Shown here: positions 37,168 through 46,666 of the stretch, piece by piece | Layout: every line of letters starts with the position of its first letter | Numbering within the stretch: position 1 is the stretch's first letter | Assembly: GCF_000013385.1 (NCBI RefSeq) | Contig: NC_007760.1 | Span: 2,233,001 to 2,297,000, forward strand | Origin: Anaeromyxobacter dehalogenans 2CP-C | GTDB taxonomy: Bacteria > Myxococcota > Myxococcia > Myxococcales > Anaeromyxobacteraceae | Direction: 5' to 3' | DNA length: 64,000 nucleotides | Position numbers and translations under genes: made by a program | The notes under the pieces: generated by a model | The model's input: only the letters and a program-made list of their open reading frames with translations | The model's database searches: none | Told to the model about the DNA's origin: nothing

Positions 37168-38808
<1,641 letters not shown>

Positions 38809-39785: not shown

Positions 39786-42700
39786 ATGCGGCCGACCGCG
39801 CGGAACCTCGCCCCCCTGCTCGCCGTCCTGTGCGCCCCGCCCGCCCTGCTCGCGGGGTGCGGCCACGCGGAGCCGCGCCCGCGGGCGGCCGCGCAGGACC
39901 GCGACGGGCTCTCCGCCCTGTGGAGCTACTACCGGTACACCCACGTGCAGGGCGGACGGGTGGCGGCGCTCGACGAGGGCGGCGTCACCACCTCGGAGGG
40001 CCAGGGCTACGCCATGCTCCGCGCGGTGTGGATGGACGACCGCGCCACGCTGGACGCGGTCTGGCGCTGGACGCGCGAGAACCTGGCGGTGCGCGAGGAT
40101 CGGCTGCTGGCGTGGCGCTGGCTGGACGGCAAGGTCAAGGACCGCAACGCCGCCACCGACGCGGACCAGGACGTGGCCCTCGCGCTGGTGCTCGCGTCCC
40201 GCCGCTTCGGCGACCCGCGCTACCTCGAGGCGGCGCGCCCGCTGCTCGCCGACATCTGGGCGCGCGAGGTGATCCGCGCCGGCGGCCGCTGGCTCCCCAC
40301 CGGCGGCAACTGGGCGCCCGCGGAGCGCTACCCCACCCTCCACGTCGCCTACCTCGCGCCGTACGCCTACCAGGTGTTCGCCGACGTCGATCCGGAGCGG
40401 CCCTGGGCCGAGCTGGTCGAGTCGAGCTACCAGGTGCTGCGGTTCCTGATGATCGAGAAGGGCCTGGCGCTCCCGCCCGAGCGCATCTGGGTGGACCCGC
40501 GCACCGGCGAGCTGCTGCTGGCGCGCCCGGGCGGGCAGCCGGACGCGTTCGGCTACGACGCGGTGCCCGTCTACTGGCGCGTGGCGCTCGACGCGCGCTG
40601 GTTCGGGCGGCGAGGCGAGGCGGAGCTGCGCGCCCGGCTGCTCCGCTTCCCGGCCGAGGCGTTCCGCGACGAGGGGCGCCTGCGCGAGCGGTACACGACC
40701 TCGGGCCGCCCCCTCTCCGAGCTGGACGGGCTCCCCCACCTCGCCTCGGTGCAGGCGCTCGCGCAGCTCGAGGATCCCGAGCTGGCGCGCGCCATGCGGG
40801 CGTCGAAGCTGGACGCGCTGTTCGACCGGGCCCTCTCCGGCGAGGCGACGCCCTACTACCTCCACAACTGGCTCTGGTTCGGGCGCGCCCTGGAGGCCGG
40901 GCTCCTGCGCCGCTTCGACGAGCCGCTCGCGTTCCTCTCCTCGCTGGACTGGGGCGCGTTCCGCGACCGCTTCCCGCTGCTCCCGGTCGCGCTGGCGGTC
41001 GTGCTCGCGCCGCTCGCGCGGCGGCTCTGGCCGGCGCGGGCGGCGCTGGTGGCGCTCGCGCTCGGCCTGTCGATCCGGTACCTCGCCTGGCGCGCCGGCT
41101 CGACGCTCAACTTCGTCGAGCCGCTCGGCCCCGCCCTCTCGCTGGCGCTCCTCGCCGCGGAGGCGTACGCGCTCTCCACCGTCGCGCTCCTCGTGGTGCA
41201 GGTCGGGCTCCGCCACCGCGCCCGCCCGCCCGAGCCGCCGCTCGGGGCCGGCGAGCCGCACCCGTCGGTGGACGTGATGGTGCCCATCTACTCCGAGCCG
41301 CTCGACATCCTCGACAAGACGCTCGCCGCCTGCGCCGCCCTGCGCTACCCGCGGAAGACCATCGTGGTCTGCGACGACTCGCACCGCGAGGAGGTGGCCC
41401 GGCTCGCGGCCGAGCACGGCGCCCGCTACCTGGCCGGCCCGCGCCGGCACGCCAAGGCCGGCAACCTGAACGCCGCGCTGGCCCGGACCGACGGCGAGCT
41501 GGTGGTGGTGTTCGACACCGACCACGTGCCCACCGCCGCGTTCCTGGAGCGGACCGTGCCGTGCTTCCGCGACCCGCGGCTCGGCGTGGTCCAGACCCCG
41601 CACCACTTCTACAACCCCGACGTCTTCCAGCGCGCGCTCGGCGCGCCGGCCTCGGTGCCGAACGAGGCGGACCTGTTCAACCACGCCATCCAGGGCGGGC
41701 GGGACCGCTGGGGCGGGGCGTTCTTCGTGGGCAGCGGCGCGGTGTTCCGCCGCGAGGCGCTCGCCTCGGTGGGCGGCTTCCACCTGCTCTCCATCACCGA
41801 GGACATCCACACCAGCCAGAAGCTGCACGCGGGGGGCTGGCGCACGCGCTTCGTGGACGAGGACCTCGCCGCCGGGCTCTCCGCCGAGGACCTGGCGAGC
41901 TACGTGGTGCAGCGGCGGCGCTGGATGCTCGGCTGCCTGCAGATCTTCTTCCGCGACAACCCGCTGCTCCAGCGCGGGCTGCCGCTGCGCCACCGCCTCG
42001 GCTACCTCGCCTCGCTCTGGTACTTCTTCTTCCCGCTGGCCCGGCTGGTGTTCTTCGCCACGCCGCTCGCGTACCTCCTGTTCCACCTGCACCCGCTGTT
42101 CGCCGAGCTGCCGGTGCTGCTCGCCTACCTCGTCCCGCACCTGGTCGCCGCGCCGCTCGCGGCGTCCGCGCTGGTGCCGGGCTGGCCGCGGCTGCTCTGG
42201 GGCGGCCTGTACGAGGGCGCGGTGGCGTTCCCGCTGGCGCGCGCCACGCTCGACCTGCTCCTGCCGAGGCGGCTCGGCTTCAAGGTGACGCCCAAGGGCG
42301 TGCGCTCCGAGCGGCGCCGCTTCGACCTGCGCACCTCGGCGTTCACGCTCGCCGCCGCGGCGGTCGGGCTCCTCGCCATCGCCAAGGGCGCGGCGGAGCT
42401 GTGGGCGTTCGGCATCGAGGTCGAGGCGTACGCGTTCAACCTGGCCTGGGCGGGCGCGAACCTGGTCTCGGTGCTGCTCGCGCTGCTCGTCGCCTGGGAG
42501 CGCCCGCAGCGGCGCGAGGACGAGCGGATCCGGCGGCGCGTGCCGGTGCGGCTGGAGGCGCCGGGGCTGTCGCTCGAGGCGAGCACGCTCGACCTCGCCC
42601 GCGGCGGGGCCGCGGTGGCGCTGCCGCCCGGCGCCGCGCTGCCGGCCGAGGTCGAGGTGACGTTCGACGGGCCCGAGGGGCTCCGCCTCCGCGCGCGCGT

Positions 42701-43208
42701 CGCCTACGTCGAGCCGGTGGACGGGGCGCCGCGCGCCGGGCTCGCGTTCCAGGGCGTCGGCGCGGCCGAGGCGCGCGCGCTGGTCCGGATCGCGTTCTCG
42801 GCCGACGGGGCGCACGCGGGCGCGCACGACGGGCGCAGCCGGTGGCAGGCGGCCATGGCCTGGCACCTGCTCGCCGGGCTGTGGCGGGCGGTCCGGCCGC
42901 TCCGCCCGCGGCGGCGCCTCGGGGCGCGGCGCCGGACGCTGCGCCCGCTCCGGCTGTGCGGCGCGGGGCGCGCCTGCCGGGCCCTCGCGGTGGACGCGTC
43001 GGCGGGGGGGCTGGGGCTCGTCGCGGCCGGCGCGAGGGGTGCGATCCCCGCGCCGGGCACGGCGCTGGCGCTGCTCGCCCCGGAGGGGATCGGCTGGGCC
43101 CGCGTGGTCCACGCACGGCGCATCCTCCCGGGCCTGTGGCGGCTGGGGCTGGCGCTCCAGGCGGAGCCCGTCCCGGGCGCCGAGCCGCATGCCTACCTTG
43201 CTGCCTGA
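39786..43208 (+). CDS. Fused GH8 endoglucanase - BcsA-type cellulose synthase - tandem PilZ protein
   Basis: 1140 residues. An N-terminal signal has lipobox LLAGC (Cys25). A GH8 cellulase domain follows (about 40-380, BcsZ-like) with proton donor Glu71 in TTSEGQGYAM, and TDADQD at 124-129 and GYDAVPVYW. Three membrane spans (about 397-475) lead to a GT2 synthase domain with VVCDDSH, FDTDH at 576-580, TED at 671-673 and QRRRW at 709-713, then about four more spans. A PilZ domain follows (RRRVPVR, DLARGGA), and a second PilZ-like one (RRxxxRR, DASAGGLG). Spans place the cellulase outside and synthase and PilZ inside. It would polymerise beta-glucan under c-di-GMP control and trim it on export. 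BcsA and BcsZ are normally separate proteins. Confidence 0.92.
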   Translation: MRPTARNLAPLLAVLCAPPALLAGCGHAEPRPRAAAQDRDGLSALWSYYRYTHVQGGRVAALDEGGVTTSEGQGYAMLRAVWMDDRATLDAVWRWTRENLAVREDRLLAWRWLDGKVKDRNAATDADQDVALALVLASRRFGDPRYLEAARPLLADIWAREVIRAGGRWLPTGGNWAPAERYPTLHVAYLAPYAYQVFADVDPERPWAELVESSYQVLRFLMIEKGLALPPERIWVDPRTGELLLARPGGQPDAFGYDAVPVYWRVALDARWFGRRGEAELRARLLRFPAEAFRDEGRLRERYTTSGRPLSELDGLPHLASVQALAQLEDPELARAMRASKLDALFDRALSGEATPYYLHNWLWFGRALEAGLLRRFDEPLAFLSSLDWGAFRDRFPLLPVALAVVLAPLARRLWPARAALVALALGLSIRYLAWRAGSTLNFVEPLGPALSLALLAAEAYALSTVALLVVQVGLRHRARPPEPPLGAGEPHPSVDVMVPIYSEPLDILDKTLAACAALRYPRKTIVVCDDSHREEVARLAAEHGARYLAGPRRHAKAGNLNAALARTDGELVVVFDTDHVPTAAFLERTVPCFRDPRLGVVQTPHHFYNPDVFQRALGAPASVPNEADLFNHAIQGGRDRWGGAFFVGSGAVFRREALASVGGFHLLSITEDIHTSQKLHAGGWRTRFVDEDLAAGLSAEDLASYVVQRRRWMLGCLQIFFRDNPLLQRGLPLRHRLGYLASLWYFFFPLARLVFFATPLAYLLFHLHPLFAELPVLLAYLVPHLVAAPLAASALVPGWPRLLWGGLYEGAVAFPLARATLDLLLPRRLGFKVTPKGVRSERRRFDLRTSAFTLAAAAVGLLAIAKGAAELWAFGIEVEAYAFNLAWAGANLVSVLLALLVAWERPQRREDERIRRRVPVRLEAPGLSLEASTLDLARGGAAVALPPGAALPAEVEVTFDGPEGLRLRARVAYVEPVDGAPRAGLAFQGVGAAEARALVRIAFSADGAHAGAHDGRSRWQAAMAWHLLAGLWRAVRPLRPRRRLGARRRTLRPLRLCGAGRACRALAVDASAGGLGLVAAGARGAIPAPGTALALLAPEGIGWARVVHARRILPGLWRLGLALQAEPVPGAEPHAYLAA

Positions 43209-43238: not shown

Positions 43239-45326
43239 ATGATCCGAACCCTCCGCGCCGCCGCGCTCGCGGCCGCGCTCGCGCTGCCCGCCGCCGCCCG
43301 GCCCGCCGGGATCTCCGAGGCCTGGTACCTCGCGCGCGGGCGCGCCAACCTGCGCATCGGCAACTGCGCCGCCGCGGTGGAGGCCTACCGCAAGGCGCTC
43401 GCCGAGAACCCGCGCGGCCGCGAGGCGTCGCGCGGCGTGGCGCTGGCGCTGCTCCAGAACGGCGACACCGACCTCGCGGTCGCGGAGCTGGACCGCCACC
43501 TGGCGCGGTTCCCCGACGACGCGGAGCTGGCGTTCCGGCAGGCCGGGCTGCTGCAGTGGTCGCGCTACGCCTACCGCTCGAGGGACGCGGTGCGCTACCT
43601 GCGCATGGGCCTGGCGGTGCGGGACGATCCCGCCCGGCGGCGCGAGCTGGCGCGGCTGCTGGCGCGCGAGCGCGCCGCGCTGGGCGAGGCGCTCGCCGAG
43701 TACGACCGGCTGCTCGCGGCGGCCCCGGACGACCGGACGCTCCGCGACGAGCGGCTGCGGCTGCTGCTCTGGGATCCGGCGCGGCGCGAGGCGGCGGTCG
43801 AGGAGCTGCGCCGCCGCCGGCGCGAGGCGCCCGGCGACGCGGCCGCGACCCGCGCGCTGGCCGGGCTGCTCGCCGCCGACGCGCGCACCGCCGGCGAGGC
43901 GGTGGGCCTGTACGACGAGCTGCTCGGGCGCCGGCCCGACGACGCGGAGCTGGCGCTGGGTCGTGCGCGGGCGCTCTCGAAGGCCGGGCGGCGCGCCGAG
44001 GCGCGCGACGCGTACGCGCGGGCGATCGCGCTCCGCCCGTCGGCCGAGGCGCGCCTGGAGCGGGCCGAGCTGCTCGCGGCCGACCCGGCCACCCGCGGCG
44101 AGGCCCGCGCCGAGTACCAGGCGGTGCTGCGGGCCGAGCCGCGCTCGCGGCGCGCGCGGCTCGGGCTGGCGCGCGTGCTCGGCGCCCGCAAGGAGACGAG
44201 CGGCGAGGCCATCGCCGCTTACGAGACGGTGCTCGCCTCGGCGCCGCAGGACGCCGAGGCGCACCGCGGGCTGGCGCAGGCGTACGCGTGGAACGGCGAC
44301 CCCGACCGCGCGCTGGCCCACGGGGACCTGGCCGGCCGCTACGGCCCGGCCCGGCCCGAGCTGGCGGCGCTGGAGCGCGACCTGCGCCGCGGGCGCGAGC
44401 CGGCGGCGGGCGGCCTGGCGCGGGCGCTGGCGCAGACGGGCGGGGACTTCGCGATCTCGTCGGCCGGCGCGTTCGCCACCGGCCGCACCGACCCGACGCC
44501 GTTCACGACCGGCGCGGTGGAGGCCGGCGCCGCGGCGCACCGCGGCCCGGACGGCGCGCGCGCCGAGGGCGCGCAGGTGCGCGTCACCGGCCGCTGGCGC
44601 CCCGACCCGGCCTGGCGCCTCGACGCGGCGGGCGGGTGGGACGGCGCGCGGCGCGCCGGCCAGGGCTTCCAGGGCGCGCTCGGGCTCGAGGCGACGCTCG
44701 GGGCGGCCACCCTGGCGGCCTCCGTCTCGCGCGCGCCGCGCCTGGACTCCTTCCGCGCCTACGCCGGCGAGCTCGTGGACGGGCGCGTCGTCGGCGCCGC
44801 CTCCGAGACCGTCGCCGCGCTGCGGGTGGCGCTCGCCGGCCGGGACCTCCGGGGCGAGCTGTCGGCGCGGGCGGGGACCGTGTCCGGCGCCGGCTTCCGC
44901 TCCACGCTCCTCGCCGGCGTCGCCGCGCGCGCCGATCGCGTGCTGGCCCGGCCCGGCGGCTTCGAGCTGGCCGCCGGCGGCGCGGTCGAGGCGGTGCACC
45001 ACGCCCGCGATCTCTCCGGCGACGGGCCGGTGCCCGACCCGGCCGCCCCGCGCCTCTTCTCGCCCCCGCTGCACGCCACCGCCTCGCCGCGCCTCTCGCT
45101 GGCGCGCGACGACGGCCTGGCCGGGCGCCTCGTCCTCGACGCCGGCCCGGCCGTGCAGCTCACCACCGGCGCGCGCGGCGCGGTCCGCGCCGGCGGCGAC
45201 GCCCGCGCCGCGGTGCTCCGCCGGATCGGGCGGCTCCAGCTCTCCGCCGAGGCCCGCTACGGCCGGCTCGCCTCGGTGCACGCCGCGTTCAGCGGCGCGG
45301 TCGGGGCGGAGATCCTCTTTCCGTGA
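43239..45326 (+). CDS. BcsC-like TPR and beta-barrel exopolysaccharide export protein
   Basis: 695 residues with a signal peptide (after LPAAARPA). About residues 25-390 are tetratricopeptide repeats (AWYLARGRANLRIGNCAAAVE and many following helical pairs). About 400-695 alternate in a beta-barrel pattern and end in Phe-Pro, like outer-membrane proteins. BcsC binds nascent cellulose in the periplasm with its TPRs and passes it through an outer-membrane barrel. It follows the synthase fusion by 30 bases and overlaps the pseudokinase start (GTGA). It is shorter than E. coli BcsC (about 1150 residues), with fewer repeats. Confidence 0.85.
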   Translation: MIRTLRAAALAAALALPAAARPAGISEAWYLARGRANLRIGNCAAAVEAYRKALAENPRGREASRGVALALLQNGDTDLAVAELDRHLARFPDDAELAFRQAGLLQWSRYAYRSRDAVRYLRMGLAVRDDPARRRELARLLARERAALGEALAEYDRLLAAAPDDRTLRDERLRLLLWDPARREAAVEELRRRRREAPGDAAATRALAGLLAADARTAGEAVGLYDELLGRRPDDAELALGRARALSKAGRRAEARDAYARAIALRPSAEARLERAELLAADPATRGEARAEYQAVLRAEPRSRRARLGLARVLGARKETSGEAIAAYETVLASAPQDAEAHRGLAQAYAWNGDPDRALAHGDLAGRYGPARPELAALERDLRRGREPAAGGLARALAQTGGDFAISSAGAFATGRTDPTPFTTGAVEAGAAAHRGPDGARAEGAQVRVTGRWRPDPAWRLDAAGGWDGARRAGQGFQGALGLEATLGAATLAASVSRAPRLDSFRAYAGELVDGRVVGAASETVAALRVALAGRDLRGELSARAGTVSGAGFRSTLLAGVAARADRVLARPGGFELAAGGAVEAVHHARDLSGDGPVPDPAAPRLFSPPLHATASPRLSLARDDGLAGRLVLDAGPAVQLTTGARGAVRAGGDARAAVLRRIGRLQLSAEARYGRLASVHAAFSGAVGAEILFP

Positions 45327-46666
45327 ACACCGTCCCGCCGCTCCCCGCGCCGGGGTCCGCGCCCCGCGCCTCGGCGGTCCCCGCGCCCGCCGCGCCGGGG
45401 CGGCCGGTCCCGCCCCGCGCGCCCGCGGCCGCCGCGGCGCTCGACGCGCCGCGCCCGGCGGCGGAGCCCCTGCGGGCGCTGGCGGAGGTGCTGGCGGCGC
45501 GCCCCGAGGGCGCGGCGCGGCTGGCGATCGCGCGCGGCCTGGCCGCCGCGGTGGCGGCGCTGCACGCGGAGGGGCGCGTCCACGGGGCGCTGCACCCGGG
45601 CACCGTCCGGATCGCGCCGGGCGGCGCGGTGGCGCTCGGGGCGCGCGGCGCGGCGCGCCCGGGGCTCGGGCCGGGCGCGCCGGTCGAGCCCGCCGGCTTC
45701 GCGGCGCCGGAGGTCCTCCGCGGCGCGCGCGCCGGACGCCGCGCCGACGTGTTCTCCACCGCCGCGCTGGTGCAGGCGATCCTCTGCGGCGCGCCGCCGT
45801 TCGACGCGCCGACCGCGCTCGAGGCCGCCCACCGCGTCCTGTACCGGCCGCCCGCACCGCCCGGCCCGGAGGTGCCGCCCGCGCTGGAGGACGCGATCGC
45901 GGCCGCGCTCGCGAAGCCGCGCTGGCGCCGGCCGGGCAGCGTCCTGGCGCTGTGCGCCGCGCTGGCGGCGCCGGCCTCGGCCCCGGCGCCCGCGCCGGCG
46001 CCGGCGCCGAACGCGTGGGACGGCGCGCTCGACCGCGCGCGCTCGGCGCTCGCCTCGCTCGTCGCCGCGGCCGCCGTCCGGCGCGCACCCGCGCTCGGCG
46101 CCGCCGCCCTCCGCGCCCTGGAACGGCTCCGGCCCCTGGTCGCGGCCGCCCGCGTTCGCCTGCCCGCCTCGCGCCGGGGCCGCGCCGTGCTCGCGGTCGC
46201 GCTCCTCGCCCTCGCCGGCCTCCTCGCCGTCCCGCGCGGCGAGGCGGACCTCGCCGCCGGCGTGGCGGCGCGCCTGGCGGCCGGCGACGCCGCCGGCGCG
46301 CGCGCCCTCCTCGACGAGGCCGAGCGCGCCGGCCGGCGCGGGCCGCTCCTCGACAAGCTCCGCGGCGACGTGGCTTGCGCCCGCCGCGCCTCCGGCGAGT
46401 GCCTGCGGCGCTACCGGCTGGCGCTCGCCGCCGACCCCGCGCTGCGGACCGACCCGGTGATCCGCGAGAACGCGCGCCGGCTGCTCGGGGCCGACGGCTG
46501 CGGAACCCGCCGCGCCGCCGCCGAGCTGATCGGCGAGCTGCGCGACCCGGAGGCGCTGCCGGCGCTGCGCGCGGCGCGCGGCCGCGGCGGGCTGCTGGCG
46601 TACTTCTGCACCGGCGACTCCATCGACCGCGCCATCCGCGAGGTCCGCGCCGACGCGCGCCCGTGA
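45323..46666 (+). CDS. Membrane-anchored Ser/Thr pseudokinase-like protein
   Basis: 447 residues from a GTG overlapping the stop of the exporter gene. A Pro/Ala-rich head (1-45) precedes a region with the layout of a Hanks kinase C-lobe: HGALHPGTV at 87-95 in place of HRDLKPEN, no DFG, then FAAPEVLRG (APE) and ADVFSTAALVQAILCGAPPF. No glycine-rich loop or VAxK lysine is present, so catalysis is unlikely. One membrane helix at 287-304 is followed by about 140 extracytoplasmic residues with four or five Cys and repeat-like helices (LLDEAERAG, ALPALRAAR). It may act as a scaffold or signal adaptor for the glucan synthase. Family assignment is from motif order only. Confidence 0.78.
   Translation: MNTVPPLPAPGSAPRASAVPAPAAPGRPVPPRAPAAAAALDAPRPAAEPLRALAEVLAARPEGAARLAIARGLAAAVAALHAEGRVHGALHPGTVRIAPGGAVALGARGAARPGLGPGAPVEPAGFAAPEVLRGARAGRRADVFSTAALVQAILCGAPPFDAPTALEAAHRVLYRPPAPPGPEVPPALEDAIAAALAKPRWRRPGSVLALCAALAAPASAPAPAPAPAPNAWDGALDRARSALASLVAAAAVRRAPALGAAALRALERLRPLVAAARVRLPASRRGRAVLAVALLALAGLLAVPRGEADLAAGVAARLAAGDAAGARALLDEAERAGRRGPLLDKLRGDVACARRASGECLRRYRLALAADPALRTDPVIRENARRLLGADGCGTRRAAAELIGELRDPEALPALRAARGRGGLLAYFCTGDSIDRAIREVRADARP

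Follow-up and report, generated by a model that had tools for sequence, protein, structure and literature searches.

The pairing of a cellulose-cutting enzyme with cellulose synthesis in bacteria is an old puzzle. In the BcsA-BcsB/BcsZ/BcsC systems of E. coli, R. sphaeroides and Komagataeibacter, the synthase BcsA and the endoglucanase BcsZ are separate proteins, BcsB is present, and the synthase contains one PilZ domain and four membrane spans before the GT2 domain. The BcsA mechanism of synthesis, extrusion and PilZ gating has been described (PMC11470070), and in the Gram-negative systems studied to date, BcsA was active only together with BcsB (Omadjela 2013, as cited in PMC7710045).

The window analysed here, a stretch of 64,000 nucleotides from Anaeromyxobacter dehalogenans 2CP-C (NC_007760.1, positions 2,233,001 to 2,297,000), lies within one contig of 5,013,479 bases and contains a gene that fuses a GH8 domain, a BcsA-type synthase and two PilZ-type domains. 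The locus has the GT2 core, gating loop, PilZ domain, GH8 domain and TPR-barrel exporter in common with the systems above, whereas it differs from them in the fusion itself, the absence of BcsB, the second PilZ domain and the number of spans before GT2. The BcsAB and BcsZC fusions of Zymomonas also place Bcs subunits in one chain, but these are other pairs, and no BcsZ-BcsA fusion is reported in the available part of that survey of synthase-dependent operons (PMC7112194). The tunicate CesA-GH6 protein likewise combines a cellulose synthase with a cellulase-family domain; however, it is an animal protein, and its GH6 domain is C-terminal and has lost the catalytic Asp (PMC7464555). The cyanobacterial type IV / XcsA systems resemble the fusion in having a BcsA-type synthase with PilZ and no BcsB, but they use an HlyD-like partner, a TolC route and a separate endoglucanase (PMC12430437). 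Clostridial CcsZABHI also contains a synthase and a hydrolase without a BcsB homologue, but as separate proteins in a Gram-positive background, with the CBM protein CcsB replacing BcsB (PMC7710045). In the literature that we searched, no description of such a fusion was found, which agrees with the earlier note, where the four-part order was called unfamiliar; a mention in reviews of Bcs diversity is possible. The fused synthase with its own export-pore gene, and with BcsB almost always absent, points to a compact and seemingly undescribed kind of cellulose-secretion system.

Domain organization of the fused protein

As shown in Table 1, the fused gene is a single open frame of 1140 codons, from the ATG at 39786 to the stop codon at 43206-43208. 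The GC3 values over the GH8, GT/membrane, PilZ 1 and PilZ 2 segments were 0.99, 1.00, 1.00 and 0.96, respectively; because GC3 stays at 0.96-1.00 across all four segments, the gene contains no frameshift.

Table 1. Features of the fusion locus in the window and of the longer frame in the Myxococcota MAG JALHOP01
Feature	Position	Strand	Residues or length	Basis or remark
Phosphoglucomutase	37168..38808	-		Beside the fusion in Anaeromyxobacter loci only
Fused gene: signal, GH8, three spans, BcsA-type GT2, spans, PilZ 1, PilZ 2	39786..43208	+	1140 aa	
Secretion signal with lipobox LAGC	39786..39860	+	aa 1-25	LAGC at residues 22-25
GH8 endoglucanase domain	39909..40919	+	aa 42-378	PF01270, alignments, fold
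Three predicted pre-GT membrane helices	40977..41204	+	aa 398-473	Match spans 2-4 of ordinary BcsA
GT2 synthase domain	41262..41930	+	aa 493-715	Pfam, NCBIfam, phmmer
C-terminal membrane helices	41985..42491	+	aa 734-902	
Gating-loop motif FKVTPK	42279..42296	+	aa 832-837	
PilZ domain 1	42507..42797	+	aa 908-1004	Pfam
PilZ-like domain 2	42912..43160	+	aa 1043-1125	Motifs, hhalign, model
BcsC-like exporter	43239..45326	+	695 aa	Signal, TPR-type helix pairs, 16-strand barrel
Third gene of the Anaeromyxobacter operon	45323..46666	+		Degenerate protein-kinase-like domain, membrane span, HEAT-like repeat
JALHOP01 mega-ORF	L035:3918-8903	-	1661 aa	Same gene at L057:6905-11899 (+)

Pfam matched GH8 at residues 46-282 (E 7e-33), together with GT2 (E 3e-28) and the first PilZ domain (E 1.6e-14) at the residues given in Table 1, and NCBIfam matched CelA/BcsA at 401-1005 (E 4e-152) and BcsZ at 45-372 (E 9e-30). 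A phmmer search against the PDB returned BcsA across residues 397-952 and GH8 enzymes across about 40-320, and the closest sequence match of the GH8 domain was the BcsZ-type CMCax. With the BcsA profile TIGR03030 the protein scored 507.7 bits, below the curated equivalog cut-off of 699.1, so the fused synthase is a relative of BcsA that lies outside the curated equivalog. The score with the BcsZ profile was 103.8 bits, below the curated cut-off of 299 bits.

The GH8 residues are E71 (acid), D125/D127 and D258 (base), with the acid and base assigned from alignments with CelA and CMCax; catalytic roles of the equivalent residues have been named for AfmE1 (PMC5407803). Among relatives with a residue at the position in question, E71 was conserved in 24/24 and D258 in 25/25. 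The GT2 residues of the window copy are D530/D531, D577xD579, E672-D673 and Q709RRRW713, and both the D,D / DxD / TED / QxxRW motifs and the gating loop FxVTxK were retained in almost every one of 26 sequences. The catalytic signatures of both enzymes, reported as intact in the earlier note, were thus found in place and essentially invariant in 26 relatives. The acceptor-site motif reads FFVGS, as against FFCGS in E. coli BcsA. We also confirmed the lipobox-type signal (Table 1); its Cys is kept in Anaeromyxobacter and several other Myxococcota, and other relatives have SPase I-like or ordinary signal peptides.

The first PilZ domain and a putative second one

PilZ 1 contains R910/R914 of the RxxxR motif, which are kept in most family members, and D936xA938xxG941; the DxSxxG motif of the window copy reads DLARGG, with Ser replaced by Ala. 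In PilZ 2, the corresponding motifs are R1044/R1048 and D1070xSxxG1075, and conservation was high for R1044 (23/24), R1048 (22/23), and S1072 and G1075 (20/21). In a 16-member alignment of PilZ 2, the Arg residues of RxxxR were invariant, and the Ser and Gly of D/NxSxxG nearly so. Pfam gave no PilZ match to the second domain of the window protein, and PF07238 matched this domain weakly in 5 of 16 relatives (best E 0.0025). Comparison of PilZ 2 with PilZ 1 by hhalign gave 94.8%, and the AlphaFold2 model contains two separate six-stranded units (920-988 and 1049-1125). The VIA-align fold comparison listed no PilZ-only match for PilZ 2, its list being taken up by the other domains. On these motifs and the model, we accept PilZ 2 as a putative diverged PilZ domain, in line with the earlier proposal of two PilZ-like domains.

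Predicted structure and topology

The AlphaFold2 model of the fused protein had a mean pLDDT of 82.3. Residues 28-379 superposed on GH8 enzymes (Z about 33-39; BcsZ 36), where the beta-1,3-1,4-glucanase 5xd0 was level with the cellulases, and residues 389-1036 superposed on R. sphaeroides and E. coli BcsA (Z 36.9 to 4p00 and 39.7 to 9b8v). The orientation of the GH8 domain relative to the membrane domain is uncertain in this model (pTM 0.64), and the linker at 379-381 has a pLDDT below 50.

The model revealed pre-GT helices at 398-411, 415-439 and 448-473 and five helices after the GT domain. Hydropathy likewise gave three spans before GT2, with peaks at 401, 425 and 462, in contrast to four spans in ordinary Myxococcota BcsA, a count read by eye from the same profile; some of the spans are fused or divided by the simple peak caller. 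The BcsA profile alignment starts at position 36-42 in the fused proteins, as opposed to 4-11 in ordinary BcsA, and in the structural comparison the fused protein aligns with R. sphaeroides BcsA from residue 35-37 of the latter onward. From these alignments and the model, the exported GH8 domain with its signal peptide is predicted to occupy the place of BcsA span 1, which would keep GT2 inside and GH8 outside; three rather than four spans before GT2 are what a periplasmic GH8 requires. These results support the domain order and the topology that the earlier note had described.

The adjacent exporter and other neighbouring genes

The gene downstream of the fusion encodes a BcsC-like exporter, whose model (pLDDT 90.6, 16 strands) had E. 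coli BcsC (9b8a) as its top PDB match. Against the curated BcsC profile it scored 50.8 bits, through the TPR part only and below the cut-off of 858 bits. A TPR-barrel gene lies directly 3' of the fusion in every locus that extends that far; the spacing is 30 bp in the window and elsewhere varies from an overlap or a few bp up to about 150 bp. The fused protein still requires a pore in the outer membrane, which this adjacent gene supplies, so the unit consists of two genes, and the description "one-protein cellulose machine" in the earlier note is not supported in that form; an all-in-one frame was found in one MAG only.

Beyond the fusion and the exporter, no further conserved gene was found at the locus outside Anaeromyxobacter. 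Within this genus, the third gene is conserved and its start overlaps the exporter stop (GTGA); no match to it was found at fusion loci outside Myxococcota, and its product could regulate the exporter. The phosphoglucomutase, as a source of glucose-1-phosphate for UDP-glucose, fits a role in UDP-glucose supply. We also observed that, in Anaeromyxobacter, the gene immediately 5' of the fusion encodes a secreted NAGPA-type phosphodiester glycosidase (PF09992; 38863-39675).

Absence of BcsB and of a stand-alone GH8

BcsB (PF03170) was missing from 22 of the 23 genomes with the fusion, some of which are incomplete MAGs, while several Anaeromyxobacter genomes are single-contig and that of N. moscoviensis is finished. 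The one exception is a Fibrobacter MAG in which BcsB lies on a different contig. By comparison, each of the 19 control genomes, which carry ordinary BcsA, contained BcsB (3/3 and 16/16). In the genome of the window, the search gave just a 9.7-bit match at chance level; such a family search may miss a BcsB analogue that has diverged strongly and is encoded at another site. The fused GH8 was the sole GH8 in 17 of the 19 fusion genomes tested, and no free-standing second GH8 (BcsZ) was found in the genome of the window.

Distribution and origin

The fusion was found in all nine Anaeromyxobacter genomes searched (several single-contig), in 9 of 146 genomes of the phylum searched, and in 5 of 78 genomes of the order of N. 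moscoviensis, whose chromosome is finished. The taxonomic survey of GH8-GT2 fusions that the earlier note had suggested was carried out with a GH8-junction profile: 25 of the 31 named loci fetched were fused. These carry about seven phylum labels (Myxococcota, Nitrospira, Pseudomonadota, Bdellovibrionota, Thermodesulfobacteriota, Fibrobacterota and KSB1), with finer labels including Gammaproteobacteria/Chromatiales, Fibrobacter, Bdellovibrio and Desulfosudis. Apart from those of Anaeromyxobacter and N. moscoviensis, the loci come mostly from MAGs, and single-contig taxon labels are possibly wrong. The relatives share the same domain order and a similar length across these labels. In a tree of 49 rows, the 23 fused synthases formed one clade (support 100/100), which a long stem separates from ordinary BcsA; a single origin followed by transfer between phyla would explain this clade most simply. 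A plasmid search with the GH8-junction query gave no plasmid that matched over most of the query, and hence no fused relative on a plasmid.

In the Myxococcota MAG JALHOP01, GH8-BcsA-PilZ, a signal-like helix ending AHA-EG, TPR and barrel form one frame, with the length in Table 1 counted from the first start and PilZ 2 absent. Codon bias is continuous across the junction, which contains no Ns, and the contig is 774 kb long. No further mega-fusion was found in eight genomes of the same order, so that it was seen in one genome only. The frame is possibly a synthase-to-pore polyprotein; alternatively, translation from an internal ATG could yield the pore as a protein of its own.

Proposed mechanism and alternative explanations

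Judging from sequence and model, the locus is likely to encode a compact system of two genes, without BcsB and under c-di-GMP control, that secretes cellulose or a closely related beta-glucan, with GH8 tethered at the chain exit. By homology to BcsA, the fused protein would polymerise UDP-glucose on the cytoplasmic side, and its own membrane domain would be the channel by which it extrudes the chain. The chain would reach the periplasmic side beside GH8, which the next span would tether to the membrane, and in Myxococcota the lipid is probably a further anchor. As the topology suggests, GH8 at this exit may cut or untangle the emerging chain, and since BcsB is missing, it probably also assumes part of the chain-receiving or guiding job of BcsB. 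The chain would then be handed to the adjacent TPR-barrel protein and cross the outer membrane. As with BcsA, the gating loop would be freed once c-di-GMP binds PilZ 1, and PilZ 2 may be a second c-di-GMP input. The cooperative response that the earlier note thought two c-di-GMP sites could give may exist, and the motifs of both sites are conserved across the family. The need for BcsB in the studied systems, the chance that family searches miss a strongly diverged BcsB analogue, the Ser to Ala change in PilZ 1 of the window copy and the uncertain orientation of GH8 in the model count against this system.

The fusion may instead be one of convenience within an ordinary Bcs system, in which GH8 only trims as BcsZ does and an unrecognised protein elsewhere fills the role of BcsB. 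Analogues without sequence similarity to BcsB do exist, such as the cyanobacterial HlyD-like proteins (PMC12430437) and clostridial CcsB (PMC7710045), and family searches overlook them; however, the known analogues are encoded in the synthase operon, and here only two genes are conserved at the locus outside Anaeromyxobacter, so that we regard this explanation as rather unlikely. It is unlikely that the product is another beta-glucan, such as a mixed-linkage (1,3;1,4) glucan, with GH8 matched to it: the tie of 5xd0 in fold Z, the long stem of the fused clade and the FFVGS motif would agree with such a product, but the top sequence matches are BcsA for GT2 and BcsZ-type CMCax for GH8. The GH8 family takes in lichenases, xylanases and chitosanases, which also counts for another glucan.

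A mainly structural GH8 domain that guides or anchors the chain, with incidental hydrolysis, has a parallel in the suggestion made for the tunicate GH6 domain; the loss of the catalytic Asp there (PMC7464555) indicates that a hydrolase domain fused to a synthase can be retained after its catalytic function has gone. In the fused family, however, the full conservation of E71 and D258 points to selection for catalysis, and we consider a structural role quite improbable. The joining of two neighbouring genes by a sequencing or assembly error has a negligible probability and was rejected together with a frameshift, the two faults that the earlier note had asked about: the same fusion occurs in nine genomes of the genus and in N. 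moscoviensis, and codon bias is continuous.

Beyond the two-gene BcsB-less system favoured above, we tentatively propose, as a possibility, a separate class of beta-glucan secretion in which GH8 built in at the chain exit functionally replaces BcsB, with no more than two proteins needed to synthesise, trim and export the glucan under c-di-GMP control; in a single lineage of Myxococcota, synthase and pore would have merged into the one frame of JALHOP01, possibly cut by signal peptidase at the internal AHA site. Overall, the earlier note was borne out on domain order, topology, motifs and novelty in the literature, but not on its one-protein claim, and it missed the loss of BcsB, the adjacent BcsC-like gene and the replacement of span 1.

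Having both enzymes in one chain, with catalytic residues retained, gives them a fixed stoichiometry and a defined place, and the loss of BcsB in the fusion genomes is a natural test of its purpose. A two-gene system would be a handy minimal machine for structural work or engineered cellulose, and annotators can give a name to a widespread pair of genes that also occurs in Nitrospira, a key nitrifier.

Other BcsA-like synthases

Some Anaeromyxobacter genomes (G004, G005 and, at locus L020, G008) contain a second BcsA-like synthase (33-39% identical; frames of 608-789 aa), and no BcsB was found in the Anaeromyxobacter genomes that have it. In two Pseudomonadota BcsA frames (L088 and L094), the BcsB match lies in an equally long adjoining frame (1524 and 1798 aa, respectively), and these are probably BcsAB fusions of the known kind.
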